NCBI GenBank assembly: GCA_015904075.1
Contig: JABMDH010000139.1
Location: 1 to 22,590 of the forward strand
DNA: 22,590 nt
Origin: Nitrospira sp.
GTDB taxonomy: Bacteria > Nitrospirota > Nitrospiria > Nitrospirales > Nitrospiraceae
Direction: 5' to 3'
Below are positions 2,863 through 16,932 of the stretch, piece by piece (position 1 is the first letter of the stretch; every line of letters begins with the position of its first letter). Below the pieces are notes generated by a model. That model was not told the DNA's origin and searched no databases. It worked only from the letters and a program-made list of their open reading frames with translations. A program made the translations under genes and the position numbers.

Positions 2863-4386
2863 ATGGCTATAGGGAAACGTTCTCGAGTCATTACCAATCT
2901 TGTGTTGGGGGGCCTGGTGGCTTTCGCTGCTATCGGTTTGACCGGATGCTTCATTAAACCGGTTCCGTTGACTGTGGATGAAGTGCGGTCCCGGGTCACA
3001 GAAGATCGGGCTGTTCTGACGCAGGATCAAGAGCCCCTCTCCGGTCCGATGGACCTCTATGAAGCTATGGCCCGCGCACTGAAGTATAACCTCGATGCTC
3101 GTGTCGAACTAATGCATAAAATGTTGTCGCAGACCCAACTTGATTTATCGCATTACGCGATGCTCCCGCGACTGGCGGCGAATGCAGGATTTGATGGCCG
3201 CAGTAATTATGCAGGAGGGGTTGCGCAATCATTGGTTACGGGGAGGCGGGTGCTTGAACCGTTTACATCGGCTGAAAAAACATTTTTTTCTGCCGACTTG
3301 TCTCTCAGCTGGAATGTCGTCGATTTTGGGCTTTCCTACATTCGAGCGAAACAGGCTGCGGATGATGTGTTGATTGCCGAGGAAGAGCGGCGACGTGTGG
3401 CCAATCGCGTCATACAGGATGTACGGGCCGCCTATTGGCGAGCTGTCAGCGCGGAGCGGATTCTCCCGTCCCTCAAACAACTAGATGAGTGGGTCAAGAA
3501 CGCTCTCGAGAAGGCCCAGGCCGTGCAAGATGAAAAACTCAGCGCGCCGATGGTCCCGCTGCAGTATAAACTCGACCTTCTGAATACGCAGCGCTATATC
3601 CAGCAGCTGTTCAGAGAACTTAACATAGCCAAACTTCAATTGGCTGCCTTGATCAATCTCCCCCCTGACCAGGAGAAAGACATTGTACTCATGGTGCCGG
3701 AGCGCGAGTCTACGACTATGAGTCTGCCCTCCGAGATGACGGTGCTGGAAGACCGGGCGTTGGAGGCGCGTCCAGAACTCAAGATGATCGATTATCGTCG
3801 CCGCATCAACGCGCATGAGGCTAAGGCGGCGATTTTGGAACTGATGCCCAGCCTGAACCTTATTGTCGGAGAGAACTACAGCAGTAACAAGTTCCTATTC
3901 AACAATCACTGGGCTGCGTATGCCGCGCGGGCGAGTTGGAATTTGCTGAATTTATTTCGGTATCCGGCTCGTACCAAGACGATCGATGCGCAGGATAAGG
4001 TTTTGCACACGCAGAATCTTGCGCTGAGCATGGCGGTCATGTCGCAAGTGCATGTCGGCATTGCGCAGGTTGCGCATGCGAAGCGAGAGGTCTCAACCGC
4101 GAAGCTGTACTATGAGACGCAGTCGCAAATTACTGAACAGGTGCGCGTGGCCTGGAGGTCATCCCGAGTCAGTGAACAGGCGGTGCTTCGCGAGCGGGTG
4201 GCCCAAGTGGCAGCTCAGCTTCGATACGATGCCGTAGAAGCAGAACTCCAAACTGCCTGGGCGTCACTGTTGGCGGCGATCGGGGAGGATGTTTTGCCGA
4301 ATAATCTGACGCAAGAGCAGCGCCTCTCCGATTTGGCGTTCCAATTGCGTGCTCGATGGGCAAAGGGGAAGGAGTCGATCAAATGA
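2863..4386 (+). CDS. TolC-family outer-membrane efflux lipoprotein
   Basis: Trimeric outer-membrane channel protein with a periplasmic alpha-helical tunnel, 507 residues, within the TolC/OprM size range. The N terminus is a lipoprotein signal: basic MAIGKRSR, a hydrophobic stretch and lipobox LTGC with the lipidated Cys at 29, as in OprM-type channels. Two halves each carry long amphipathic helices, and the first half includes DLYEAMARALKYNLDARVE, the usual TolC N-terminal helix pattern. The start is ATG at 2863; TAA lies in frame upstream and there is no near Shine-Dalgarno. AGGA at 2838-2841 sits 21 nt away, or 6 nt if the 2848-2862 hairpin is looped out. It is the first of four coupled genes, and its stop overlaps the next start in an ATGA. 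The role inferred is exit channel for the cargo of this cluster. Confidence 0.92.
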   Translation: MAIGKRSRVITNLVLGGLVAFAAIGLTGCFIKPVPLTVDEVRSRVTEDRAVLTQDQEPLSGPMDLYEAMARALKYNLDARVELMHKMLSQTQLDLSHYAMLPRLAANAGFDGRSNYAGGVAQSLVTGRRVLEPFTSAEKTFFSADLSLSWNVVDFGLSYIRAKQAADDVLIAEEERRRVANRVIQDVRAAYWRAVSAERILPSLKQLDEWVKNALEKAQAVQDEKLSAPMVPLQYKLDLLNTQRYIQQLFRELNIAKLQLAALINLPPDQEKDIVLMVPERESTTMSLPSEMTVLEDRALEARPELKMIDYRRRINAHEAKAAILELMPSLNLIVGENYSSNKFLFNNHWAAYAARASWNLLNLFRYPARTKTIDAQDKVLHTQNLALSMAVMSQVHVGIAQVAHAKREVSTAKLYYETQSQITEQVRVAWRSSRVSEQAVLRERVAQVAAQLRYDAVEAELQTAWASLLAAIGEDVLPNNLTQEQRLSDLAFQLRARWAKGKESIK

Positions 4387-5171
4387 GATTCGAAAGCCGA
4401 CACCTGCTTGGCGGTATGATTATGGCCGCGTGGTTCCTCATCTCGATATCGATTGCGACGGCTGCCGCCAAGTCGGACATCAAGCCCACCAGCAATGCGG
4501 CAGAACTCAGTACGATTCGAGGGGTGGTGAAAGCTACTGCCCAGGCCACGTTGGCCAGCCAGGTTCAGGGCCGAATCAGCCAACTTCCCTTTAAGGAAGG
4601 GCAGCGATTCAAAAAAGGGGCTCTTCTGGTGGCCCTGGACTGCTCAAAGTACGAGGCGGAACTGGCAAGTGCTCAGGCAGAATATCGAGGTAAGAAGAAA
4701 ACCTATGAGAATAATCTCCGGCTCTCCGAGCATCAGGCTGTCGGTACGCTTGAGCTCGAAATTTCAAATGCAGATGCAGACAAGGCCTTTGCTGTTGTGA
4801 AAGCGGCGCAGGTCAATGTGAACGGCTGCACGGTGCGGGCCCCGTTTCCCGGGCGCGTGGTTAAAACGATTGTGAATGAGCATGAGAATGTTTTTCCCAA
4901 TGATCAGCTCATCAGCCTGTTGGACGACAGCTTGCTCGAAATCGAGTTGATTTTGCCGTCGAGATCCCTTGCCTGGTTGCGGGTCGGCACGCCTTTTGAG
5001 TATGCCGTTGATGAAACCGGACGCCGGTATGCTGCAGTCGTTCAAGATATCGGTGCGAATGTCGATCCTGCAAGCCAGACGGTGAAGGTCAAAGGATTAT
5101 TTCGTGTCCAGCCTGACCATGTGCTTGCGGGAATGAGTGGAACTGCTTTATTCGAGGAGCCGGCACACTGA
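4383..5171 (+). CDS. HlyD/RND-type periplasmic adaptor protein
   Basis: Membrane-fusion (adaptor) protein of 262 residues linking an inner-membrane machine to the TolC-type channel. A signal peptide or membrane anchor spans about residues 8-29 (ends ATAAA). The first lipoyl half-domain is about 50-90 (GRISQLPFKEGQRFKKGALL), then a short helical hairpin (about 90-140), the second lipoyl half (TVRAPFPGRVVKTIVNEHENV), and a beta-barrel domain to the end. Short adaptors of this kind usually pair with RND or ABC pumps, but neither is encoded nearby. Start choice: ATG at 4383 overlaps the previous stop (ATGA) and has AAGGAG 8 nt upstream; an in-frame ATG at 4356 would lack these features and prefix a non-signal-like stretch. 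One base separates its stop from the next start. Confidence 0.9.
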   Translation: MRFESRHLLGGMIMAAWFLISISIATAAAKSDIKPTSNAAELSTIRGVVKATAQATLASQVQGRISQLPFKEGQRFKKGALLVALDCSKYEAELASAQAEYRGKKKTYENNLRLSEHQAVGTLELEISNADADKAFAVVKAAQVNVNGCTVRAPFPGRVVKTIVNEHENVFPNDQLISLLDDSLLEIELILPSRSLAWLRVGTPFEYAVDETGRRYAAVVQDIGANVDPASQTVKVKGLFRVQPDHVLAGMSGTALFEEPAH

Positions 5172-5172
5172 T

Positions 5173-6540
5173 ATGGCTACAGCCGAAGCGGTTACCCACA
5201 GCCCCCCTCAAAGAAGCACATCGTTTACCATGCTGCTTCAGCTGGAAGGGATGGTCCGTGCGGCTCGGACTCGGCAGGAGCTGCAATTCTTTTTTGTCAA
5301 TGAAACACGCCGGCTGGTCCCCTATCAGCAAGCCATTCTCTTGATTCCGCCAGCCCCATCGTCGCCACGCTATGAAGTGCAGGCGGCATCGAGCGTGCCC
5401 ATCGTCGATCGTACTGCGCCGTTGATGCAATGGACAGAACGATTGATTCAGGGGCTGCGAGCAATGTCTCCGGGCTCCGACATTCGCCAGGTTTCGGACA
5501 GTGATTGCCCTGAGGAATTGAGGCGGGACTGGAAGGAATTTACCCCGGGTCATGGCGTATGGTGCCCGCTCAAGCATCCTGATGGGCAGCTACTCGGCGG
5601 CCTGTGGCTTACGAGGGAACAGCCATGGGCAGACCATGAGGTGACAGTCCTGCAGCGTATTGGCGACGCGTATGCCTATGCCTGGCGAGCGGTGGGTGCA
5701 TCAAGCAGTCTTCAATGGCGATGGGGGCTGAGCCGGACTGTGACGTGGATACTTGCCAGTGCGATAGTGGGCGCGCTTGCCATCCCTGTTCCCATGTCAA
5801 CGCTGGCGCCGGCAAAGGTTGTCGCAAAAGACTCTGCGATCGTCAGTGCACCGATCGATGGTGTCATCTCGGATATTCTTGTCCTCCCCAATACGGTCGT
5901 CTCCGAAGGGGAGGTGTTGTTTCGGTACGAGGACACAACATTCAGGAGTGAGTATCAAGTCGCGGAACGGAATCTGGACGTGTCGATCGCTCAGTATCGT
6001 CGTGCCGCCCAAGGGTCATTTGTCGAAGCGGAGCAAAAAGCCGATGTGCCGCAGTTGAAAGCTGAAGTCGAATTGCGAGAGACCGAGCGAAACTACATGT
6101 ACGAACGCTTGACGAAAGTTGAGGTCAAGGCTGAACAAGCGGGGTTGTTGCTGTATGCGGATAAGTCCGATTGGATCGGAAAGCCAGTTGTAGTCGGTCA
6201 GCGTATCATGGAAATCGCAGATCCGAAACATTTGGAAGTCCGTATCGATCTCCCCGTCGAAGATGCCATTGTGTTGCGCGAAGGGGCTACGGTGAAGTTG
6301 TTTTTAAATGCCAATCCATTTACCAGCGTGGCTGCGACAGTCAGTCATGCGAGTTATCATGCCGAGGTCTTGCCGAACAATACGTTGGCGTATCGGGTGA
6401 TCGCTCAGCTTGAGCAGGGGGCATCGGAACTCCGAATCGGTTGGCAGGGAAGTGCCAAAATCTACGGGGAGCAGGTGTCGCTGTTCACCTATCTGTTCCG
6501 TCGTCCGATTTCCGCCCTTCGACCTTGGGTAGGCCTATGA
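5173..6540 (+). CDS. GAF-like domain fused to transmembrane segment and HlyD adaptor domain
   Basis: A 455-residue fusion. Residues about 20-175 resemble a GAF fold (FFVNETRRLVPYQQAIL, HGVWCPLKHPDGQLLGGLWL, then a helix with VTVLQRIGDAYAYAW). A single membrane segment follows at about 189-208 (WILASAIVGALAIPV). The rest is an adaptor: lipoyl half (SAPIDGVISDILVLPNTVV), a coiled-coil stretch, second lipoyl half (AGLLLYADKSDW) and a beta-barrel. The predicted topology puts the GAF domain in the cytoplasm and the adaptor in the periplasm, so a cytoplasmic signal or protein partner could gate the export machine. The ligand is unknown. The start ATG at 5173 is 1 nt after the previous stop, with GAGGAG 13 nt upstream; the in-frame ATG at 5137 lies inside the previous gene. 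The stop overlaps the next ATG (ATGA). Confidence 0.87.
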   Translation: MATAEAVTHSPPQRSTSFTMLLQLEGMVRAARTRQELQFFFVNETRRLVPYQQAILLIPPAPSSPRYEVQAASSVPIVDRTAPLMQWTERLIQGLRAMSPGSDIRQVSDSDCPEELRRDWKEFTPGHGVWCPLKHPDGQLLGGLWLTREQPWADHEVTVLQRIGDAYAYAWRAVGASSSLQWRWGLSRTVTWILASAIVGALAIPVPMSTLAPAKVVAKDSAIVSAPIDGVISDILVLPNTVVSEGEVLFRYEDTTFRSEYQVAERNLDVSIAQYRRAAQGSFVEAEQKADVPQLKAEVELRETERNYMYERLTKVEVKAEQAGLLLYADKSDWIGKPVVVGQRIMEIADPKHLEVRIDLPVEDAIVLREGATVKLFLNANPFTSVAATVSHASYHAEVLPNNTLAYRVIAQLEQGASELRIGWQGSAKIYGEQVSLFTYLFRRPISALRPWVGL

Positions 6541-8669
6541 GCCAAGCAACGCTTCAGAGTCAGGAAAAGATACTGCCGCTGCTGCGCGAAGATCTTCGAT
6601 TTATCGAGGGTGCGTCGGGCCCCGATGGCTCACCAACATGGGTCATTGTCGACCCAGTCCGTGGAAAATACTTTCAGATCGGCTGGGCTGCCTACCAGAT
6701 GTTATCGCGTTGGAGGGGGGTATCGGCGGAAGCGCTCCTGTTACAGATTCATGCAGAGACAACCTGCCGTGCGACCCGAGAAGATCTCGATGGTCTTCTT
6801 CGATTCCTGTATGGGAACCACCTTATGAGGGACCCACCGCAAGGGGGCTATCGTGCGTATGCGGCACATGCCGATGCCGTGCGTCCGCTCTGGTTGCTCT
6901 GGCTTGTCCATCACTATCTTTTTTTCCAAATCCCACTGATTCAGCCGGACCGATTTCTTCGTGTGACCCTCCCCTATGTGGAGTGGATATTTTCACGGTC
7001 GGTTGCCTGCATTATTGCGCTGATAGGACTGACGGGCCTCTATTTGGTATCACGCCAATGGGATACCTTTACGGCAACAATTCTTCATTTCTTCACACTG
7101 CGGGGACTTGGGTTGTATGTCCTCTGTTTGGCAGTCGTCAAGGTGTTCCATGAATTGGGGCATGTCTATACGGCGGCGCGCTATGGTTGTCGGATTCCTG
7201 CCATGGGCGTTGCCATGGTTGTGATGGTTCCAATGCTGTATTCAGACACGTCTGATGCGTGGAGGTTGGCCTCCCGTCGCCAGCGAGCCGCCATCGGGGC
7301 TGCCGGCATGATTGTCGAGATATCGCTGGCGGCCATAGCGATCTTCATGTGGAACTTTCTCGATGATGGTGTGGTGCGGAGTCTCGTCTTTATCATGGCG
7401 ACCACGAGTTTATTAGTAGGCATCGGCATCAATCTGAGCCCTTTGTTGCGATTTGATGGGTACTACGTGTTATCCGATTTATTGGGTATTCCCAACTTGC
7501 ACGATCGTGCTTTCGCGTTCGGTCAGTGGCAACTGCGGCGGCTATTGTTTGGTCTGGATGTGCCGATGCCAGAGCCGGTTTCTGCAGTCCGTCGTCGATT
7601 TTTGGTCTGGTTTGCCTGGGCTGTGTGGGCATACCGGTTCATGCTGTTTCTTGGCATTGCCTTCATGGTCTATGAATACTTTTTCAAGTTACTGGGAATC
7701 ATCCTCTTCGCGGTCGAAATCGGGTGGTTTATCCTGCTGCCGATCGCACGAGAACTCAATGTTTGGTGGGGCTTGAGAGGAGTGATCGGCGAGCGTGGTC
7801 GAGTATGGGTATCGGTCGGTGTGCTGATATTTCTGACGGCAGCCCTGTTCATTCCCTGGTCCGATCGTCTCAGTTTCCCGGCGGTGCTGGAATCGACGCC
7901 ACATGCGACCATCTATGCTCCGGTACCGGGAAGAGTCGTCGAGTTAGTGGTGAATGAAGGCCAACGGGTAGGAGTGGGAGACAAACTGGTTGTGTTGGAA
8001 TCGCCGACGCTTGAGAAAGATATGGCACTGACACGTAAAAGGATCGAGGTCGAGCAACTGAAGGGCCGGCGGCAGTTTGTCAATCAACAAGAGCTTGCGA
8101 AGCACCAAGTGACGCTGGAAATGCTGAAGGCGCATCTCTCACACCTTGAGGGCTTGCAGCAGCAGCAGCAGAACCTCTCGCTGATGTCCCCAATCACGGG
8201 AATTGTGACCGATCGGGCGGAGGCGTTGCATGTGGGGCGATGGGTCAATAAAGAGTTGCCGCTTGCCTATGTGGTCAATCCGGCAGGTGAAGAACTGCAT
8301 GCATTGGCGCCTGAGACGGAGGTTGGTTATCTTCGAGCAGGGCAATCGGCTCGCTTCATTCCGGAGGTGCCGGATCGACCGAGTTTGAATGCGAAGGTGA
8401 TCGAGATTCGCGACATTGATGAAAGCAGCTTCACGGTCCCCTACCTTGCGTCTCTCTATGGCGGGGATGTGCCCGTTCGGGAAGATGCCACGCGTAAATT
8501 GAGGCCGGAGGCCTCTGTTTATCGCGTTACTCTGCAACTCGTCGAGTCGCCGCCTCAATGGAACCAGGCTGTGCGAGGGATGGTGTTGGTGGAAGGGCCG
8601 CGCATCAGCTTCGCCCAACGGTTGTGGGAACAAAGCGCCCGTATCTTCATTCGTGAAAGCGGTGTGTGA
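6537..8669 (+). CDS. PqqD-like / M50 site-2-protease-type membrane protein fused to HlyD adaptor domain
   Basis: A 710-residue inner-membrane protein of the 'peptide zinc metalloprotease' type. Residues about 15-110 resemble a PqqD-like domain (WVIVDPVRGKYFQIG). A polytopic M50 core follows, with the zinc motif HELGH at 205-209 and NLSPLLRFDG at 299-308, matching the second site-2-protease motif NxxPxxxxDG with D307 as third ligand; all catalytic residues are present. More membrane segments extend to about 445. From about 455 there is a lipoyl half (APVPGRVVELVVNEGQRV), a coiled coil with a QQQQQ run (about 490-545), the second lipoyl half (SPITGIVTDRAEAL) and a beta-barrel. Intramembrane cleavage of a substrate is plausible; the cargo's C-terminal membrane segment or N-terminal element are candidates. 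Start: ATG at 6537 overlaps the previous stop; the in-frame ATG at 6441 is inside the previous gene. Confidence 0.9.
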   Translation: MSQATLQSQEKILPLLREDLRFIEGASGPDGSPTWVIVDPVRGKYFQIGWAAYQMLSRWRGVSAEALLLQIHAETTCRATREDLDGLLRFLYGNHLMRDPPQGGYRAYAAHADAVRPLWLLWLVHHYLFFQIPLIQPDRFLRVTLPYVEWIFSRSVACIIALIGLTGLYLVSRQWDTFTATILHFFTLRGLGLYVLCLAVVKVFHELGHVYTAARYGCRIPAMGVAMVVMVPMLYSDTSDAWRLASRRQRAAIGAAGMIVEISLAAIAIFMWNFLDDGVVRSLVFIMATTSLLVGIGINLSPLLRFDGYYVLSDLLGIPNLHDRAFAFGQWQLRRLLFGLDVPMPEPVSAVRRRFLVWFAWAVWAYRFMLFLGIAFMVYEYFFKLLGIILFAVEIGWFILLPIARELNVWWGLRGVIGERGRVWVSVGVLIFLTAALFIPWSDRLSFPAVLESTPHATIYAPVPGRVVELVVNEGQRVGVGDKLVVLESPTLEKDMALTRKRIEVEQLKGRRQFVNQQELAKHQVTLEMLKAHLSHLEGLQQQQQNLSLMSPITGIVTDRAEALHVGRWVNKELPLAYVVNPAGEELHALAPETEVGYLRAGQSARFIPEVPDRPSLNAKVIEIRDIDESSFTVPYLASLYGGDVPVREDATRKLRPEASVYRVTLQLVESPPQWNQAVRGMVLVEGPRISFAQRLWEQSARIFIRESGV

Positions 8670-8835
8670 AAATTGGGCATCCGGGCACTCCTGTAATTAT
8701 CCTCCCTCCTTGTAGAGCAGAAACTCAAATAACAAATAAGTAATGCCCTGGACCAAAATCTGTGTTCGGCGGCCATTTCTCATGCCAAAAATGATTGTAA
8801 ACATTTAATAAATAAGTTGAATTTACCATCATTAA

Positions 8836-8851
8836 TGGCACCATCCTTGCT
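8836..8851 (+). promoter_or_regulatory. Sigma-54 (RpoN) promoter for the giant surface protein gene
   Basis: TGGCAC (8836-8841), five bases, TTGCT (8847-8851) matches the sigma-54 -24/-12 consensus TGGCAC-N5-TTGCW. GG at 8837-8838 and GC at 8849-8850 have the required 10-bp spacing. The predicted start is near 8862, 41 nt upstream of the ATG. The 60 bp upstream are AT-rich, with a palindromic ATTTAATAAAT at 8803-8813, as suits DNA bending and enhancer binding. It implies control by an enhancer-binding activator, which is not encoded in the window. Confidence 0.7.
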
Positions 8852-8902
8852 AGTCACTTATATGATGAACTAAGAACCGATTCCCCCGGTATGTAATCTG
8901 TT

Positions 8903-11900
8903 ATGCGGATACTGCGTAGAAAGAAAAAACCGGCGGGTGGCCCAGCGCGGGACAAGCATCTCCACGTAGTAGGTAAGGGAGCTGTTACCACATCCAACTC
9001 GAGCGTTGTCGGTACGTTGCTGTCGCTCGAATCTCGCCTCATGTTTGATGGTGCTGCAGTAGCCACGGCCGGGGCCGTGACGGCTGAGCAGTCTGCGCAC
9101 AGTCAAGCCGAGGCATCGTCGTCTGACGGTTCGGCGGCGGCCGATACCATTCCTGCAGCGCCGACAGGCGAGCCTCAGTTCACCACCGATGAGCAAGCGC
9201 TGTTCGACGCGCTGGCGGCCTATGATACGTCGGCGGCCCGTCAGGAAATCGTTTTTGTGTCCTCCAGCGTTCTCGAATATCAAAAACTCCTCGACGGCAT
9301 CAGCCCCAATGTCGAAGTTATCATTCTCGACCCTGCTCGTGATGGCATCGAGCAGATGGCGGAGGCGCTGGCCGGCCGTACAGGAATCGATGCGATTCAT
9401 TTGATTGGTCATGGCACAGAAGCAGAGATCCAGCTGGGGGCAAGTTCGCTGACACAATCTTCGATCGATACGCAATACGCTGAACAGCTTCAACAAATTG
9501 GTGGGAGTCTTTCGACGGAAGCCGACATTCTGATCTATGGCTGCAACTTCGGCCAGGGTGAGGCTGGACAGGCAGCCATCCAAACATTGGCGGCTCTGAC
9601 GGGAGCCGATGTCGCCGCCAGTACCGATGCCACGGGCCATGTCGAGCTTGGCGGCGATTGGAATCTGGAAGCGCAAACCGGCTCGATCGAAGCCCAGATC
9701 GCCATCGATCAGGCCGCACAAGACAACTGGAGTGACCTGCTAGGGGTAGTGGATTGGGATTCGTTGACCTGGACTGCGGGCGCTACCGCGCCGGTCAGTC
9801 AGATTCTGACATTGAGCGACGGGAGCAACGTCACGGTCACCGTGACCGAATCCGCCACAGGTACATTGAACGGCATTACGACGGCCAACACATATACCGG
9901 TGGTTTATCTCCTGTGCAGGACGCGTTGCAGTTTGGAATGAATATCAAGTCACCAACAGACACCATCACAGTCCGGATCGATTTCAGCAATCAGCTGGGC
10001 GGCAGCGTCAATAACATCAGCCTCACCCTGTTCGATGTGGATAATAACGAGTTTGCCATATTCAACAGTAATGTGGGGAACCCGACGTCGGCGACCACCA
10101 GCACGACGAATACATTCAATGGTACCAACACGGTATCAGGCAATGGCATAGGCGCAAACGCAAACACAGGCGCCGGCAATACAACAATTACGTTCGGGAA
10201 GTCAGGCATTACCTGGGTGGAATTCACCTATGGCAGCACCAGCAACGCTAGTCCGGTCGTCGTGCTTCACGACATACTCTTTAACAGCACAATTGCCGGT
10301 GGGCCGACGCTGGACCTAAACGACAACGATGCGAGCCAGAGCGCCAGTGATAATTTCGACGATACGGCGCCGTTCACCGCGGCCTATAACAATGTGTCCG
10401 GTGGTTCCATTCCATGGAGCACGAACTGGATTGAAGTGGATGGTGGCGCCGCTCAGAGCCCCACCGCTGGAGAAGTTCGAGTTGTGGATGCGGACGCCAC
10501 CGCTGGCGTGGATGGAGAACTTCAGATAGGCGGGGGCAGCATCCAACGTTCGGTGAATCTCACTAACTACGTCAACCCCACCCTTTCGTTCAATTACCGC
10601 ACCAGCGGCACATTGGAAGCCGGAGACACGTTGGTCGTAGAGGTATCCAAAGACGCTGGAGTGACGTTCACCACCTTGCAGACATTTACTGACGATAGTA
10701 CAGGCACCGCAAATCTGAATTTAGCCGGCCATGAATCAGCCGATACCATTATCCGCTTCCGTGTGACGGGTGGGTATACCGCTGCCGATGAATTCCTCTT
10801 CGTCGATAACGTCACAATTTCCGCGGAGCCCACTGGCCACACTGCTGCCTATACGGAGGGTGGGAGTGCTGTAGGCATCAGCGATAGTGACGTTGTAATC
10901 ACCGATGCATCCAGTGTGAACATGAGCGGCGGGACGGTAGCGATTGCCAACTTTGTATCCGGCGATACGTTGACGTTCACCAACACCGGAAACATTACCG
11001 GCAGCTATAACGCACTGACCGGTGTACTTACGATTAGCGGGGTGGACACCAGAGCGAATTATCAGACCTTTATTTCCTCCATTCGGTATAGCAGCACCAG
11101 CGATAATCCCACCGTGGGTGGAACCATGACCACCCGCACGATTTCCACTGTCGTCCGCGATCAAACGACACAGCTGCCCAGCAATACAGCCTTCACTACT
11201 GTGACTATTACGGCAGTGAATGATGCACCCGATATCGTTAATGCAACAGTGAGTCTGAATGAAAACAGCGCCAACGGTACAGCGGTCTACAACGTGAATG
11301 ATTCCTTCACAGGAACGGATTTTGATCGTGAGGGGACCGCGATCAGCTATAGCATCACGGGGGGAAATACTGGTGGCGCGTTTGCCATCAACCCGGCCAC
11401 CGGCCAAATCACGGTGAACAGCAGTGCGGTGCTGAATCGTGAGAGCATTTCGAGTTTCACGCTGACGGTGCAAGCAAGCGATGGAACATTGACGGATACC
11501 GCTACTATCACCATCAATCTGAACGATGTAGACGAGTTCGATGTGGGCGCCATTACGGACACGAATGGCGGGACCAATGCGGTGAATGAAAACGCTGCAA
11601 CCGGCACGCTGGTGGGTATTACTGCTTCCGCCAGCGACGCAGACGCGACCAACAACACCATCACGTACAGCTTGACGGACAATGCCGGTGGGCGGTTCCA
11701 GATCGACGGCACGACCGGTGTGGTAACAGTGCTGAATGGAGGGTTACTCAACTATGAGAGCGCGTCATCTCACAACATCACGGTTCGGGCCGATAGCGTG
11801 GATGGTTCCTTCTCGACGCAGACGCATACGATCAATGTAAACAACGTGAACGAAGCGCCGGTGCTGGGCGGGGACGTGAGCGTGACGGTGGCGGAGAACA

Positions 11901-13501
11901 GCACGGCGGTGGGGACGTTTGCGGCGACGGACGTGGATGCGGGCGACACGGTGACGTACGGGTTGAGCGGGGCGAACGCGGGGCTGTTCACGATCAGTGC
12001 GGCGGGGGTGGTGAGCTTCGTGACGGCGCCGGATTATGAGACGAACCCCGGGCCGTTTACCTTCATCGTGACGGCGACGGATGCGCTGGGGCTGACGGAC
12101 ACGCAGACCGTGACGGTGAGCGTGACGAACGTCAATGAGGCGCCGGTGAACGTAGTGCCGGGCCCGCAGGCGGTGGCCGAGGACACGGCACTGGTGATCG
12201 GGGGCGTGAGCGTCACTGATGTGGACGGCAACTTAAGCACGACACAGTTGAGCGTGGGCAACGGGACCGTGACGGTGAGCCTAGCGGGCGGGGCGACGAT
12301 CAGCGCGGGGGCGAACGGGACGGGGACGCTGACGCTCGCCGGGACGCAGGCGCAGATCAACGCGGCCTTGGCGACGATCAGCTACCAGGGGAACCTGAAC
12401 TTTACCGGGGCGGACACGCTGACGGTGACGAGCACGGACAGTAACGCGGTGGCGGACACCGACGCAGTGACGATCAATGTGATGGCGCTTGCGAACAGCG
12501 CTCCGAGTCTTACTACGAATAGCGGCTCTATCGTTGTCCAAGGACTCACCGACATCATTACGTCAGATGAATTGCAGGTAACGGACTTTGACAACACGCC
12601 GGATCAACTGGTTTATACGCTCACAAGTCTGCCTCGGAATGGTCATCTTGAATTAACAACGGCTCCAGGGGTGGCAATCACGAGGTTTACTCAAGCGGAT
12701 ATCAATGCCGGCCGACTGATGTTCGTCCATAACGGTGCAGTGAGTACAAGTGAGAGTCTCACGTTTTTAGTTAGTGATGGCGCTGGAGGGTCCATCGGGG
12801 TGTCAACATTTACCATTGAGGTGTTGCCGTTTGCGCCGCCCCCGCCGCCCTCCCCCCCACCCATTGATCCCGGTCCCGGTCCCGGTTCTGTCTCAGGCCC
12901 TGGACCAACATTGGGTTCTACGGAAACCAGACCGCCGGTGTTGCAGCCTCCACCGGTAGATATTCAGATGGAGGGTATACCCGACGAACTGGTGAAACGA
13001 GTAGCGCTGGCGAGCCAAAAGTTTGTGAGGGAGGAGAAGCCGGATATCGCGCTCCAGGAGCCGATGCTTCTTTGTTGGATTGAGCCTCCGATTAAAAAAG
13101 TGCTGGCCGTAGGCCATAAGTTAGCTGAGCATTTAACCAAGATGGCCGACGATCTTGATCGAGCAATGGACGAGCGTGAACGTCAGACTCACCTTATTGG
13201 GCGGCTCACGTTACTCACCGGGGTGGTTTTCTCTGCAGGGGTTCTGGCGTGGATCCTGCGCGGAGGATCTTTGGTGGCAAGTTTTCTTGTTTCGATGCCG
13301 GCCTGGCGCCGTTTTGATCCGTTGCCCATCCTAAAGGCGAATAATCGAGATCGACGGAAGCGTGATCGCGAGGTACAAGCGAAGCATGAACAGGAAGATA
13401 GGCAATTCCGTGGCATTGGTCGGATTCTGAAACCTTCCGTGAAGCCAACCAAACCACAAGAGAAAGATAGAAGCGAGAAACCGAAGTCGCAAAACGATTG
13501 A
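8903..13501 (+). CDS. Giant DUF4347/cadherin-repeat surface protein with C-terminal membrane anchor
   Basis: A 1532-residue adhesin-like protein. Architecture by residue: basic N terminus with no hydrophobic signal; LESRLMFDGA at 42-51; low-complexity linker; DUF4347 at about 114-279, with His170-Gly171 after a hydrophobic run and Cys214 in LIYGCNFG; two beta-sandwich domains (about 280-466 and 468-644); an Ig-like module (645-775); three cadherin-like repeats (about 778-1080), with acidic NVNEAP-type linkers; another Ig-like module (1082-1193); a CSPG-like repeat (1195-1306, with RFTQADINAGRL); a proline/glycine-rich linker (1308-1350); a helical region; a membrane segment at about 1434-1465; and WRRFDPLPIL then a basic tail. 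No RTX nonapeptides are seen. TAA lies in frame 7 nt upstream, so the start is fixed, but the Shine-Dalgarno is poor. It is probably the cargo of the upstream export cluster. GC and codon use jump between about 11855 and 12480. Confidence 0.9.
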   Translation: MRILRRKKKPAGGPARDKHLHVVGKGAVTTSNSSVVGTLLSLESRLMFDGAAVATAGAVTAEQSAHSQAEASSSDGSAAADTIPAAPTGEPQFTTDEQALFDALAAYDTSAARQEIVFVSSSVLEYQKLLDGISPNVEVIILDPARDGIEQMAEALAGRTGIDAIHLIGHGTEAEIQLGASSLTQSSIDTQYAEQLQQIGGSLSTEADILIYGCNFGQGEAGQAAIQTLAALTGADVAASTDATGHVELGGDWNLEAQTGSIEAQIAIDQAAQDNWSDLLGVVDWDSLTWTAGATAPVSQILTLSDGSNVTVTVTESATGTLNGITTANTYTGGLSPVQDALQFGMNIKSPTDTITVRIDFSNQLGGSVNNISLTLFDVDNNEFAIFNSNVGNPTSATTSTTNTFNGTNTVSGNGIGANANTGAGNTTITFGKSGITWVEFTYGSTSNASPVVVLHDILFNSTIAGGPTLDLNDNDASQSASDNFDDTAPFTAAYNNVSGGSIPWSTNWIEVDGGAAQSPTAGEVRVVDADATAGVDGELQIGGGSIQRSVNLTNYVNPTLSFNYRTSGTLEAGDTLVVEVSKDAGVTFTTLQTFTDDSTGTANLNLAGHESADTIIRFRVTGGYTAADEFLFVDNVTISAEPTGHTAAYTEGGSAVGISDSDVVITDASSVNMSGGTVAIANFVSGDTLTFTNTGNITGSYNALTGVLTISGVDTRANYQTFISSIRYSSTSDNPTVGGTMTTRTISTVVRDQTTQLPSNTAFTTVTITAVNDAPDIVNATVSLNENSANGTAVYNVNDSFTGTDFDREGTAISYSITGGNTGGAFAINPATGQITVNSSAVLNRESISSFTLTVQASDGTLTDTATITINLNDVDEFDVGAITDTNGGTNAVNENAATGTLVGITASASDADATNNTITYSLTDNAGGRFQIDGTTGVVTVLNGGLLNYESASSHNITVRADSVDGSFSTQTHTINVNNVNEAPVLGGDVSVTVAENSTAVGTFAATDVDAGDTVTYGLSGANAGLFTISAAGVVSFVTAPDYETNPGPFTFIVTATDALGLTDTQTVTVSVTNVNEAPVNVVPGPQAVAEDTALVIGGVSVTDVDGNLSTTQLSVGNGTVTVSLAGGATISAGANGTGTLTLAGTQAQINAALATISYQGNLNFTGADTLTVTSTDSNAVADTDAVTINVMALANSAPSLTTNSGSIVVQGLTDIITSDELQVTDFDNTPDQLVYTLTSLPRNGHLELTTAPGVAITRFTQADINAGRLMFVHNGAVSTSESLTFLVSDGAGGSIGVSTFTIEVLPFAPPPPPSPPPIDPGPGPGSVSGPGPTLGSTETRPPVLQPPPVDIQMEGIPDELVKRVALASQKFVREEKPDIALQEPMLLCWIEPPIKKVLAVGHKLAEHLTKMADDLDRAMDERERQTHLIGRLTLLTGVVFSAGVLAWILRGGSLVASFLVSMPAWRRFDPLPILKANNRDRRKRDREVQAKHEQEDRQFRGIGRILKPSVKPTKPQEKDRSEKPKSQND

Positions 13502-13762: not shown

Positions 13763-15679
13763 ATGCGAGTGACGCCCTTAGTCTGGATCAGTTTAGGTTT
13801 AGTCAGCCTGACGGTCAGCGTCATGTTGGCAGGGGATTCGCTTGTGGATCTGGTGCCGAACCAAGAGCGCCAGATCCTTGAGCTCCGTCGAAACCTTTCA
13901 GAATCGTTAGCGGTCCAGTATTCAGCGTTGGCGGAACGCGATCAAATCGAGACGGTGAAGTTTGCGATGGGGGAACTGGCCAAGCGAAACCAGGAGATCC
14001 TGTCGCTCGCGCTCCTTAAGAAAGACGGGTTGGTCCTGGCACAGATCGGGGAACACGCTCAGATATGGGTACAGCCACCAGGGGAAGAATCCAACTTAAA
14101 CTTTTTCCAGGTTCCAATCGTTGCCGGTGAACAGCCATGGGGAGTGCTCCAGATTGCTTTTCGACAAGCCGACAAGTCTTGGCGTCACTGGTTCCTCACG
14201 GACCCGTGGGTGCGATTTCTTGGGTTTGTCAGTGGGGTAGGATTTCTAGGGTACCTCTTTTTCATGAAACGCACGCTACGTCAACTCGATCCGTCCAGAG
14301 TGGTTCCGACTCGCGTAAAGGCTGCGCTTGATGCGCTCACACAAGGCGTGGTCATGATTGATATGCAGGAGCTCATCGTTTTGGCGAATGATGCGTTCTG
14401 TCAAGCCGCCGGTAAGCCGGTGACGTCATTGATTGGGTCAGATCTCAGCGCGCTCACCTGGAAGACTGCCGCATCATCCGCCTGTCAGATTTTGGAGCAT
14501 CCCTGGACGAGAGCGATCATGGAGAAACAGCCGCAAGATAACGTGTTCTTGCTTCTCGATTCCCCGGAGAGTGACCAGCGAAAATTTATCGTGAATGTCG
14601 TTCCAATTATGGACGATGGGTCGACAGTGAGAGGAGCCCTGGTTTCTTTCCATGACGTCACCGAATTGGATCGTGCAAATTCACAACTCAAAGACGCGAA
14701 CAACGAGTTGGAGTCCTCACGCGGCCAGATTCTGAAGAAGAACCAAGAACTAGAGACCATGAATGCGAATCTCTTTGTCGAGATCAATCAACGAAAAAAG
14801 GCTGAGACGGAAAAAGAAAGGCTGTATCAGGAGCTCATGCAGGCATCCCGACAGGCCGGCATGGCGGATGTGGCATCGAGCGTACTGCATAACGCCGGGA
14901 ATGTGCTCAACAGCATCAACGTTTCGACGGATACCTTGTTGAAGGCCGTGAAGAAACCAGGAGTCGAAGATGTCTGCCGTATTGCGTCCATGTTTCATGA
15001 GCATCAAAACAACCTGTATCAGTTTTTGACCGCTGATCAAAAAGGGAGACAGATTCCTGCCTACTTGAGTTTAGTCGCTGAATCCCTGAGTGGAAATCAC
15101 CAAACTATCCAGAATGAGCTCGATGCTCTCATGAAACAGGTTGACCACCTCAAGCAAGTCATCACGGTGCCACACGATGTCGCGCGCGCCGGGAATGTTC
15201 TGGAGCCGGTGTTCGCTGAGGAATTGATGGAGCAAGCCGTGTTGATCGCGATGCCGGAACTAGCGCGGTATCGAATCGAGATTATACGGGAATACCACCC
15301 TGTCCCAAGAATTATGACGGATCGGCATCAGGTCTTACAGATATTGGTGAATGTGATTACGAATGCGAGAAATGCCATGGTGGAATATCCGGGCCGGGCG
15401 CACCAGCTCAGCTTACGAGTCGGTATGATGCAGGACGGTAATCGATCGGTGAGATTTGAGGTGGCCGATACCGGATGCGGTATTGCGGCTGAGAATATCC
15501 CTCGTCTGTTCGCTCAGGGCTTTACAACTCGAAAGGCTGGACGAGGCCTCGGGCTTCACAGTGCTGCCATCTCTGCCAAGAGTCTTGGCGGATCTATTCA
15601 AGCGCATAGTGAGGGAGAAGGGTACGGCGCGATCTTTGTGCTCGATCTCCCGCCAACTCTAGCAGAGGCTGTCGCATGA
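13763..15679 (+). CDS. Membrane sensor histidine kinase with PAS domain
   Basis: Inner-membrane kinase of 638 residues that autophosphorylates on His and passes phosphate to the receiver protein encoded by the overlapping next gene. Transmembrane segment 1 is about 5-23, an extracytoplasmic sensor of no known fold about 24-148, and segment 2 about 149-168. A PAS domain occupies about 184-310 (ALDALTQGVVMIDMQELIVL). A coiled-coil leads to a variant H-box, SSVLHNAGNVLNSI with His376. The ATPase domain has an N-box with N534 (NVITNARNAM), a G1 box D569-TGCGI and a G2 box GRGLGLHSAA. The H-box differs from the ordinary HE-[IL]-RTPL form and belongs to the LHN(V/A)GNVLNS group. Start ATG at 13763 follows a weak AGGGGA. 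The stop overlaps the next start (ATGA). A likely input for the surface-protein cluster upstream, by position only. Confidence 0.93.
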   Translation: MRVTPLVWISLGLVSLTVSVMLAGDSLVDLVPNQERQILELRRNLSESLAVQYSALAERDQIETVKFAMGELAKRNQEILSLALLKKDGLVLAQIGEHAQIWVQPPGEESNLNFFQVPIVAGEQPWGVLQIAFRQADKSWRHWFLTDPWVRFLGFVSGVGFLGYLFFMKRTLRQLDPSRVVPTRVKAALDALTQGVVMIDMQELIVLANDAFCQAAGKPVTSLIGSDLSALTWKTAASSACQILEHPWTRAIMEKQPQDNVFLLLDSPESDQRKFIVNVVPIMDDGSTVRGALVSFHDVTELDRANSQLKDANNELESSRGQILKKNQELETMNANLFVEINQRKKAETEKERLYQELMQASRQAGMADVASSVLHNAGNVLNSINVSTDTLLKAVKKPGVEDVCRIASMFHEHQNNLYQFLTADQKGRQIPAYLSLVAESLSGNHQTIQNELDALMKQVDHLKQVITVPHDVARAGNVLEPVFAEELMEQAVLIAMPELARYRIEIIREYHPVPRIMTDRHQVLQILVNVITNARNAMVEYPGRAHQLSLRVGMMQDGNRSVRFEVADTGCGIAAENIPRLFAQGFTTRKAGRGLGLHSAAISAKSLGGSIQAHSEGEGYGAIFVLDLPPTLAEAVA

Positions 15680-16932
15680 CCAATCAAGAGATGATGAACA
15701 ACCGGCGGATTCTCGTCGTCGATGACAACCATGCCATCCATGATGACTTCAATAAAGTGTTTCGCTCAGATATCCACGAAGCGAACCTTGATCAAGCACG
15801 GGCTGCTTTGTTCGGTAGCCCGCAACCCTTGCAGGAGTCCGAACAGTTTGTGCTGGATTGTGCCGATCAGGGGCAGCGCGCCCTGACCATGGTGCAGTCC
15901 GCACTAAAGGAAGGCCGGCCGTATTCCGTGGGATTTATCGACATGAGGATGCCGACCGGGTGGGATGGGCTGGAGACGGTTGAACGTCTTTGGAAAGAGG
16001 ACCCAGAGCTACAGGTGGTTATCTGCACGGCCTATTCTGACCAGCCCTGGGATGAGATCCGGCGTCGAATCGGTCGAAACGACAAGCTGCTTATCCTCCA
16101 AAAACCGTTCAGCAGCGTTGAAGTGTTGCAGCTCGCGAGCGCACTCTGCCGAAAATGGAGTCTGGCTCATCAGGTGGGCAAACAGCTGAGCGAATTAAAT
16201 CAGCTCATTGACGAACGCACGGCGGAACTGCAGCGCATGAACGATCGGCTGACGCATCTGAATCAGTGCTTGGTGCGAACCGCAGCGGACCTCGATGCGG
16301 CTCAAGCGGAGATTTCCCTCAAAAATACGGAGCTGGAACGGGTAGCGTCTCGCGATTCCCTGACGGGGTGCCTCAAGCGCCGTGCTGTGTACATGAGTCT
16401 TGAAACGGCGTTTGCAGAAAGTCGTGAACAGGGTGTCGAACTTTGTTGTGTGATGGTCGATATCGACCATTTCAAAAATGTGAACGACCAATTTGGGCCT
16501 ACGGTCGGGGATCACGCCATCCAAGCGGTCGCTGCTTGTCTGTGCAGCGCCGTGCGGCTGACAGATGTCGTCGGTCGTTATGGGGGAGAGGAATTCTGTT
16601 TGGTGCTTCCGCGCACGACGATAGCGGAAGCCGCAGAGATGGCAGAGCGCCTTCGAGTTCGTATTGAAATAGAAGCAGGGAATCGGGTACGCACGTCGTG
16701 CAAGCTGGCGATGACGGTGAGTTGTGGAATATCGTCCACGAAGCTGGGGGCGGATACCCCGCTAGAATTGATTGATCAAGCCGACAAAGCGCTGTACGCT
16801 GCCAAAGAATCCGGGCGGAATTGTGTCATGGTACTCGACCCGATCATCACCGGGCCCGACGCACGTGATTTAGCTGAGCCGAAAGTCCGGCGGATCACTC
16901 CACGTCCATCGGACCCGGAGGATTCCCTGTAG
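15676..16932 (+). CDS. Response regulator with receiver and GGDEF (diguanylate cyclase) domains
   Basis: A cytoplasmic protein of 418 residues that makes c-di-GMP from two GTP when phosphorylated. The receiver domain (about 9-160) has acidic residues D16-D17, phosphoacceptor D89 (FIDMRMP), T118 and K143 (QKPF). The distance from D17 to D89 is about 30 residues longer than in CheY-like domains, so there is an insertion around 35-65. A coiled coil spans about 165-225. The GGDEF domain has DSLTGCLKRRA, the active-site GGEEF (303-307), and an inhibitory I-site R294-LTD297 five residues upstream, so it should be active and product-inhibited. Substitutions are small: LKRR for LxNRR, and GPTVGD for GHxxGD. 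It is translationally coupled to the kinase by an ATGA overlap and is its likely partner. Confidence 0.95.
   Translation: MTNQEMMNNRRILVVDDNHAIHDDFNKVFRSDIHEANLDQARAALFGSPQPLQESEQFVLDCADQGQRALTMVQSALKEGRPYSVGFIDMRMPTGWDGLETVERLWKEDPELQVVICTAYSDQPWDEIRRRIGRNDKLLILQKPFSSVEVLQLASALCRKWSLAHQVGKQLSELNQLIDERTAELQRMNDRLTHLNQCLVRTAADLDAAQAEISLKNTELERVASRDSLTGCLKRRAVYMSLETAFAESREQGVELCCVMVDIDHFKNVNDQFGPTVGDHAIQAVAACLCSAVRLTDVVGRYGGEEFCLVLPRTTIAEAAEMAERLRVRIEIEAGNRVRTSCKLAMTVSCGISSTKLGADTPLELIDQADKALYAAKESGRNCVMVLDPIITGPDARDLAEPKVRRITPRPSDPEDSL

Follow-up and report, generated by a model that had tools for sequence, protein, structure and literature searches.

A conserved five-gene locus of Nitrospira as a candidate leader-guided secretion module for giant surface proteins

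A 22,590-nucleotide stretch of Nitrospira sp. DNA (GenBank assembly GCA_015904075.1, contig JABMDH010000139.1, positions 1 to 22,590; hereafter the window) contains five intact genes, all on the + strand, which may together provide a giant protein with a dedicated route to the cell surface. The first gene (2863..4386) encodes a TolC-family outer-membrane channel (OEP, 107 bits in the Pfam/NCBIfam scans), predicted to be a lipoprotein from an LTGC lipobox recognized by eye. It is followed by the gene for a short periplasmic adaptor with an apparent signal peptide (4383..5171, alternative start 4356), which matches RND_mfp TIGR01730 above its cut-off (122 bits) as well as HlyD_3. The third gene (5173..6540) encodes a protein with a GAF-like domain, one apparent transmembrane (TM) segment and a HlyD-type adaptor domain (HlyD_3, 55 bits), and the fourth (6537..8669) a fusion of a distantly PqqD-like N-terminal domain, a polytopic site-2-type protease of family M50 (Peptidase_M50, 34 bits) and a HlyD adaptor domain (HlyD_3). 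These four machinery genes are closely spaced, as the TolC stop overlaps the adaptor start, a 1-bp gap follows, and the GAF-like and M50 genes overlap by 4 bp. A 233-bp gap then separates the M50 fusion gene from the giant gene (8903..13501), whose 1,532-residue product, the putative cargo, contains DUF4347 (190 bits) and cadherin-type domains. A first-pass annotation made from the sequence had proposed this gene content, which the open reading frames (ORFs) and domain scans bear out; its TolC, HlyD, M50 and DUF4347 labels were likewise recovered, but GAF falls below its cut-off (19.6 versus 22.4 bits, with 8 of 40 relatives matching at E values up to 1) and PqqD was undetected by Pfam in the M50 fusion of the window. 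The best 120 M50 homologues listed share 74–91 % identity with the window protein, and several are labelled Nitrospira or Nitrospiraceae.

The arrangement was compared across 89 loci, made up of the window together with 80 loci from genomes and 8 from plasmids, with gene calls by home-made profiles, the genome loci being the best 80 of at least 527 relatives in one scan of genome contigs. All four machinery genes are complete and in the same order at 74 of the 89 loci; seven others are cut near contig ends and eight are incomplete. Gene order is thus conserved beyond chance, from Nitrospira to plasmids of Escherichia coli. Of the 75 loci that leave 1 kb or more free on the upstream side, 66 have a long ORF next to the module (upstream of it at 50, downstream at 14 and divergent at 2), a crude count that takes in four contig-edge fragments of fewer than 500 residues and three downstream ORFs of 642–659 residues that may be unrelated, and in which antisense ORFs at G+C-rich loci can mask the cargo.

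The M50 gene co-occurs with DUF4347. Orthologues were defined by scores above 700 bits in the Nitrospiraceae and above 600 bits in a sample of 398 genomes of the Pseudomonadota (the phylum of a Pectobacterium), for which scoring in the M50 search was limited to two candidates from each genome. Among 118 Nitrospiraceae genomes, DUF4347 was found in 45 and the M50 orthologue in 48: 45 contain both, three the M50 gene only, none DUF4347 only and 70 neither. DUF4347 lies within 5 kb of 43 of the 50 M50 matches, with a median gap of 540 bp for the 44 that share a contig. The corresponding Pseudomonadota counts are 70, 6, 24 and 298, and the association is strong in both samples (Fisher p = 2e-29 and 2e-49, respectively, uncorrected for kinship). 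The proposed statistical linkage of the four genes to a giant protein is therefore upheld, but DUF4347 is not an essential cargo feature, since two Pseudomonas cichorii cargos in which it was not detected have the leader described below and since it occurs without an orthologous M50 gene in 24 of the 398 genomes. DUF4347 as a universal cargo mark was accordingly rejected, none having been found in the two P. cichorii cargos by the home-made profile. In the genome of Pectobacterium versatile, two M50 orthologues are present (L131, equivalent to G008:C24, and G008:C5); one of them lies beside a DUF4347 giant, which carries the only DUF4347 match of that genome.

What the cargos share is an N-terminal leader rather than DUF4347. 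In the window protein it reads LESRLMFD (residues 42–49; 9026..9049), and it was sought upstream of DUF4347 as LExRxx[FYL][DS], of which LExRxxFD is the window form. This leader is present in the best-scoring DUF4347 protein of all 30 module genomes that have DUF4347, and in 9 of the 20 remaining matches there (three of the nine are second domains or repeats within a single protein), for a total of 39 of 50. It was found in only 4 of 43 DUF4347 matches from 24 genomes without an orthologous M50 gene, a comparison set that includes, among 30 of its members, two weak matches and a few truncations at contig ends. Of the four leader-bearing exceptions, two are encoded in the same draft genome (G339), and the other two lie beside an M50 gene of the sister family considered below (G294 and G336). 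Many of the leaderless proteins in these comparison genomes start straight at the domain, some have an ordinary signal peptide, and two carry RTX-like repeats at the end. The consensus of the 30 leaders is ALEPRxxFD(A/G)Ax(A/V)AT, often preceded by a basic stretch, with a median peak hydropathy of 1.43 over 12 residues. Both P. cichorii cargos keep the leader, and in a Variovorax cargo with an annotated length of 16,239 residues the leader and DUF4347 stand at the start.

The M50 fusion has conserved protease residues. Its zinc motif, HELGH (residues 205–209; 7149..7163), corresponds to an HExxH that is kept in 67 of 67 window-clade relatives and in all five full-length sister proteins, and H205, E206, H209 and D307 are invariant across 67 M50 sequences. 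Conservation of the zinc motif in both clades suggests that catalysis probably matters. The single-chain model of the window protein has a confidence (pLDDT) of 85.8; the 50 matches shown by each of Foldseek and VIA for this model are of adaptor or biotin-carrier type, so that these searches bear on its adaptor part only. The PqqD-like label of the N-terminal domain is a distant one that derives from the sister family, in which one protein matches PqqD above the cut-off (29.1 bits); in the window clade, weak matches occur in 3 of 67 proteins (best E 0.12). Profile comparison of PqqD with the N-terminal domain by hhalign gave 9.7 % for the window clade and 75.9 % for the sister family, against 0.2 % for a control, and the N-terminal domains of the two families gave 95 % when compared with each other by hhalign.

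A pump gene is missing from the locus. No ABC (ATP-binding cassette), RND (resistance–nodulation–division) or SecA gene was found in the 22.6-kb window, judging by the ORF list and by Pfam/NCBIfam scans of eight proteins. ABC-motif ORFs occur in the fetched flanks of only 6 of the 89 loci, so that an ABC partner near the module is not conserved, and a single RND-sized ORF with at least nine TM segments, of unchecked family, was seen in all flanks. The absence of a conserved ABC or RND pump nearby, as proposed in the first-pass annotation, thus stands. The description of the system as 'ABC-less' is correct in that no ABC gene accompanies the module, but it is incomplete, as a related system has a SecA-like ATPase of its own.

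This sister system is built around a second M50 family, which is present in both samples and mostly scores 220–372 bits against the window-clade profile, with one intermediate at 512 bits; against the same profile, five full-length sister proteins scored 266–314 bits and pieces of 440–498 residues 163–226 bits. One sister locus (in G002) encodes a GAF-HlyD protein, an M50-HlyD protein, a 662-residue SecA-like protein, two short adaptor-like proteins and TolC, and a sister GAF-HlyD protein matches GAF_3 at 44 bits. The SecA-like protein contains the SecA_DEAD, P-loop and preprotein-binding parts, with no match to the wing/scaffold domain. Of 21 SecA-like genes in the Nitrospiraceae, 20 adjoin a sister M50 gene. 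In the Pseudomonadota, regions were fetched for 20 of the 34 SecA-like matches, and every one of them holds an M50-HlyD frame no more than 1.5 kb away, which in two cases is a short fragment. On the other hand, no SecA-like gene was seen on the contig for two Nitrospiraceae sister M50 genes and for 8 of 20 in the other sample. Just 3 of 34 window-clade genomes have a SecA-like gene, which lies beside a sister M50 gene in the two checked (G001 and G002; the third is G004). A candidate dedicated SecA of the window clade, encoded downstream of locus L026, was rejected, as its full length and the presence of wing/scaffold and SEC-C domains mark it as the ordinary SecA. In one Nitrospira draft genome, the sister SecA-like gene is split over two reading frames (L127, 5633–7856, − strand).

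Giant proteins also accompany the sister loci, with open frames of up to 11,649 and 14,920 residues, the latter including a leader. Among the giants encoded next to sister loci, 13 lie on the same strand, are longer than 2,000 residues and have a readable start, and 12 of these contain the form [LMI]ExRxxLS; L226, which is too short, and L198 and L220, which run off before the start, fall outside this set. The leader pattern, in a form widened to cover sister cargos, occurs in 5 of 1,118 other ORFs of 300–1,000 residues. At L199, a divergent ORF contains LEPRVLLD.

The module is also mobile. Relatives of the M50 protein are encoded in 76 plasmid records, and six of eight fetched plasmid regions, from Variovorax, Azospirillum, Burkholderia, E. 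coli, Kosakonia and Cupriavidus (the last by ORFs alone), have the order long ORF, TolC, adaptor, adaptor, M50 fusion. On plasmid pMSR-1, a shorter ELWxxDGT-repeat protein takes the first position, and the final two genes are all that the Phyllobacterium plasmid region retains, a type I secretion pair lying close by. When the four genes of the E. coli plasmid unit were compared with 5,426 E. coli genomes, 24 matched, 22 of these with a query coverage of 80 % or more; the matching places number 21 on plasmids and 4 on chromosomes. Of the two E. coli units inspected, one is plasmid-borne and the other lies in a chromosomal island, and each consists of only these five genes among insertion sequences. 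Any other requirements may be met by housekeeping functions, provided that the module works in E. coli. As to neighbouring genes, ones annotated as tail fiber proteins adjoin the Burkholderia and Kosakonia modules (L003 and L008), and a Collar-domain gene (PF07484) adjoins a Pectobacterium module (L131). A contig filed as Chloroflexi (L016), which may be misbinned, has a module of 49 % identity together with a DUF4347 ORF.

The explanation we favour, and consider slightly likelier to be right than wrong, is that the five genes constitute a self-contained, leader-guided secretion module for a giant surface protein. It builds on the gene order, the linkage, the association of leader and module, the conserved protease residues and the SecA-like gene of the sister system, from which we infer the following steps of transport, cleavage, energy supply and anchoring. 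The N-terminal leader of the cargo, with its LExRxxFD motif, would serve as the address, to be received at the inner membrane by the M50-HlyD protein, probably via its N-terminal domain. The intramembrane protease of that protein would clip the leader or free the chain, and the three HlyD domains (of the short adaptor, the GAF-HlyD protein and the M50-HlyD protein) would form a periplasmic conduit to the dedicated TolC lipoprotein. A Sec-type ATPase may drive the crossing of the inner membrane, this being the SecA-like protein in the sister system and most likely housekeeping SecA in the window clade. In Nitrospira, a C-terminal hydrophobic hairpin would then anchor the cargo in the envelope.

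Several observations weigh against this explanation. DUF4347 has no match in 4 of the 34 module genomes, and 11 of the 50 DUF4347 matches in module genomes are without the leader (L235, L239–L244 and L246–L249); these score lower on the whole (52–167 bits with the home-made profile) and none was found adjoining a module M50 gene, so that module genomes also contain DUF4347 proteins that do not have to be clients of the module. The exception among the readable sister giants, at L203, has the start of a two-partner-type exoprotein and an ordinary signal peptide; no leader-bearing giant is present in the DNA fetched for L195, L200, L209, L227, L228 and L229, nor in that for L208, where the start lies in a masked stretch. 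The part assigned to housekeeping SecA is an analogy drawn from the sister system only, and the link between the N-terminal domain and leader reception, made through PqqD, is weak and indirect. Finally, ABC exporters occur in the same genomes, as judged by the LapB and PrtD models: a LapB-type protein scores above the cut-off in 16 of the 34 module genomes and a PrtD-type protein in 8 of the other 18, and in 8 of the last 10 the LapB model is matched over nearly its full length, though below the cut-off.

The last point bears on the possibility, also raised in the first-pass annotation, that a type I ABC exporter encoded elsewhere powers export, with the module contributing adaptors and channel only. 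The 24 of 34 module genomes with a LapB- or PrtD-type protein above the cut-off, and the 8 with a weaker LapB match, are compatible with such a partner, but two genomes (G004 and G027) show neither kind of match among those listed, and the E. coli genome searched, a control rather than a module carrier, has neither model above the cut-off although some E. coli carry the module. Together with the lack of a conserved ABC gene near the module, and with a window cargo that has no RTX Pfam match at E 0.001, in contrast to the two leaderless DUF4347 proteins with terminal RTX-like repeats, this weakens the idea of an ABC partner elsewhere, which we regard as decidedly improbable. Less probable still is that the module is no exporter but a processing or quality-control unit, trimming or releasing a protein already exported by Sec. 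M50 family members do act as processing proteases, and the window protein matches the daptide_HExxH model at 159 bits (below its cut-off of 300), yet the M50 protein is conserved together with a TolC-type channel and three adaptor domains.

An unlikely but more credible alternative than either is that the M50-HlyD protein is itself the inner-membrane translocon, acting without SecYEG, with the SecA-like ATPase pushing the chain in the sister system and housekeeping SecA or the proton-motive force doing so here. The M50 protein is polytopic, with an adaptor domain joined directly to it, the wing/scaffold domain that ordinary SecA shows in the same library is missing from the single SecA-like protein of the sister system that was scanned, and an M50 pore was already suggested in the account of a related locus (PMC4452313); the invariant protease site, however, would be needless for a mere pore. 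A bolder reading would describe a widespread ABC-free pathway in which the protease-adaptor fusion is the inner-membrane gate, reads a LEPR-type leader and exports single proteins of up to about 16,000 residues. Such a pathway would exist both with a dedicated SecA-like motor and without one, the motorless version being mobile and reaching E. coli plasmids. This reading is put forward tentatively, as it seems rather doubtful that all of its parts will hold.

Among known systems, type I secretion (HlyB/HlyD/TolC, with LapA-type adhesins secreted in two steps) shares with the window module the TolC and HlyD parts and a giant adhesin-like cargo; the module differs in having no ABC exporter gene, no RTX Pfam match, an N-terminal leader and an M50 fusion. 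From an RND efflux pump it has the RND-type adaptor, without an RND transporter gene. The leader coincides with the short N-terminal motif region covered by the LEPR-XLL domain model NF012209 (cut-off 17 bits), although the window and P. cichorii cargos score below the cut-off (11.2 and 15.0 bits, respectively) and the E. coli cargo has no match. The accessory Sec system (SecA2/SecY2) of Gram-positive bacteria exports giant serine-rich adhesins and has no TolC, HlyD or M50 component. Its dedicated SecA-type motor, giant adhesins and atypical leader are paralleled in the sister system only, as there is no second SecA in 31 of 34 window-clade genomes.

The closest precedent is the locus described by Kamneva et al. 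(2015; PMC4452313), in which SecA_DEAD, HlyD, Peptidase_M50 and GAF genes, sometimes with OEP, occur together and the ABC gene is missing; the authors suggested secretion, with SecA_DEAD providing the ATPase activity and M50 the pore, and called the broader role completely unknown. As described there, the locus has in common with the window module the GAF-HlyD protein, the M50-HlyD protein, a further HlyD protein and the lack of an ABC gene; it differs in having the SecA-like ATPase, whereas the window clade is without one, has TolC in the operon and is accompanied by an identified leader-bearing giant. The terms DUF4347 and LEPR are absent from the main text of that paper, in which Methylobacterium extorquens AM1 is named. 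In the open-licence PubMed Central literature, to which the search was confined (subscription papers and preprints lay outside its scope), neither the SecA-less clade nor the link between leader and cargo was found to have been described. What is likely to be new is therefore the SecA-less, common and mobile version, together with a likely substrate and address tag, the type of locus itself having been published in 2015 (PMC4452313). A class of loci that had no role assigned to it would thereby acquire both. If the proposal is correct, it offers a route to the surface for some of the largest bacterial proteins, such as the 16,239-residue Variovorax cargo and that of the 14,920-residue sister frame. 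As the five-gene unit occurs in genetically tractable bacteria, and among its hosts is the plant-associated non-pathogen Azospirillum brasilense, the crossing of two membranes by giant proteins could be tested by gene removal, and the answer would tell whether a site-2-type protease can act as a secretion gate.

The cargo itself has two further features. DUF4347 (9248..9742) may have a CHAT/clan-CD-like fold, with a candidate catalytic dyad of H170 and C214; the candidate histidine (window 9410–9412) is replaced by Glu or Asp in several Nitrospira cargos (L010, L013, L014 and L015). The C-termini of cargos differ by lineage. In the window protein, a hydrophobic hairpin with PAWxxFDPLPxL (13193..13333) is a possible inner-membrane anchor, and a hairpin ending in this block or a near variant was seen in the five Nitrospirota cargos looked at; the same or nearly the same block is present in cargos of L010, L011 and L017 and in one cargo of L018. 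In other cargos, the C-terminal motif [FLM]xxQ[LVFMI] occurs in 41 of 49 tails (shuffle mean 5.4, maximum 13), a lead only, since the motif was picked after viewing the tails and many of these are related. The C-terminus may be retained in the envelope.

Searches for RNA families, tRNAs and phage homologues found none, and a scan for promoters and terminators was uninformative, with 5 promoter-like sites (mean of 8.1 after shuffling) and 14 terminator-like ones (mean of 10.3). A small HARE-HTH protein is encoded near lpxC (560–1078) and is apparently unrelated to the module. On the 3′ side of the cargo gene, a PAS histidine kinase and a receiver-GGDEF protein (13763–16932) may regulate the cargo, and the cargo of L011 is likewise directly followed by another gene, an ORF of 637 residues.

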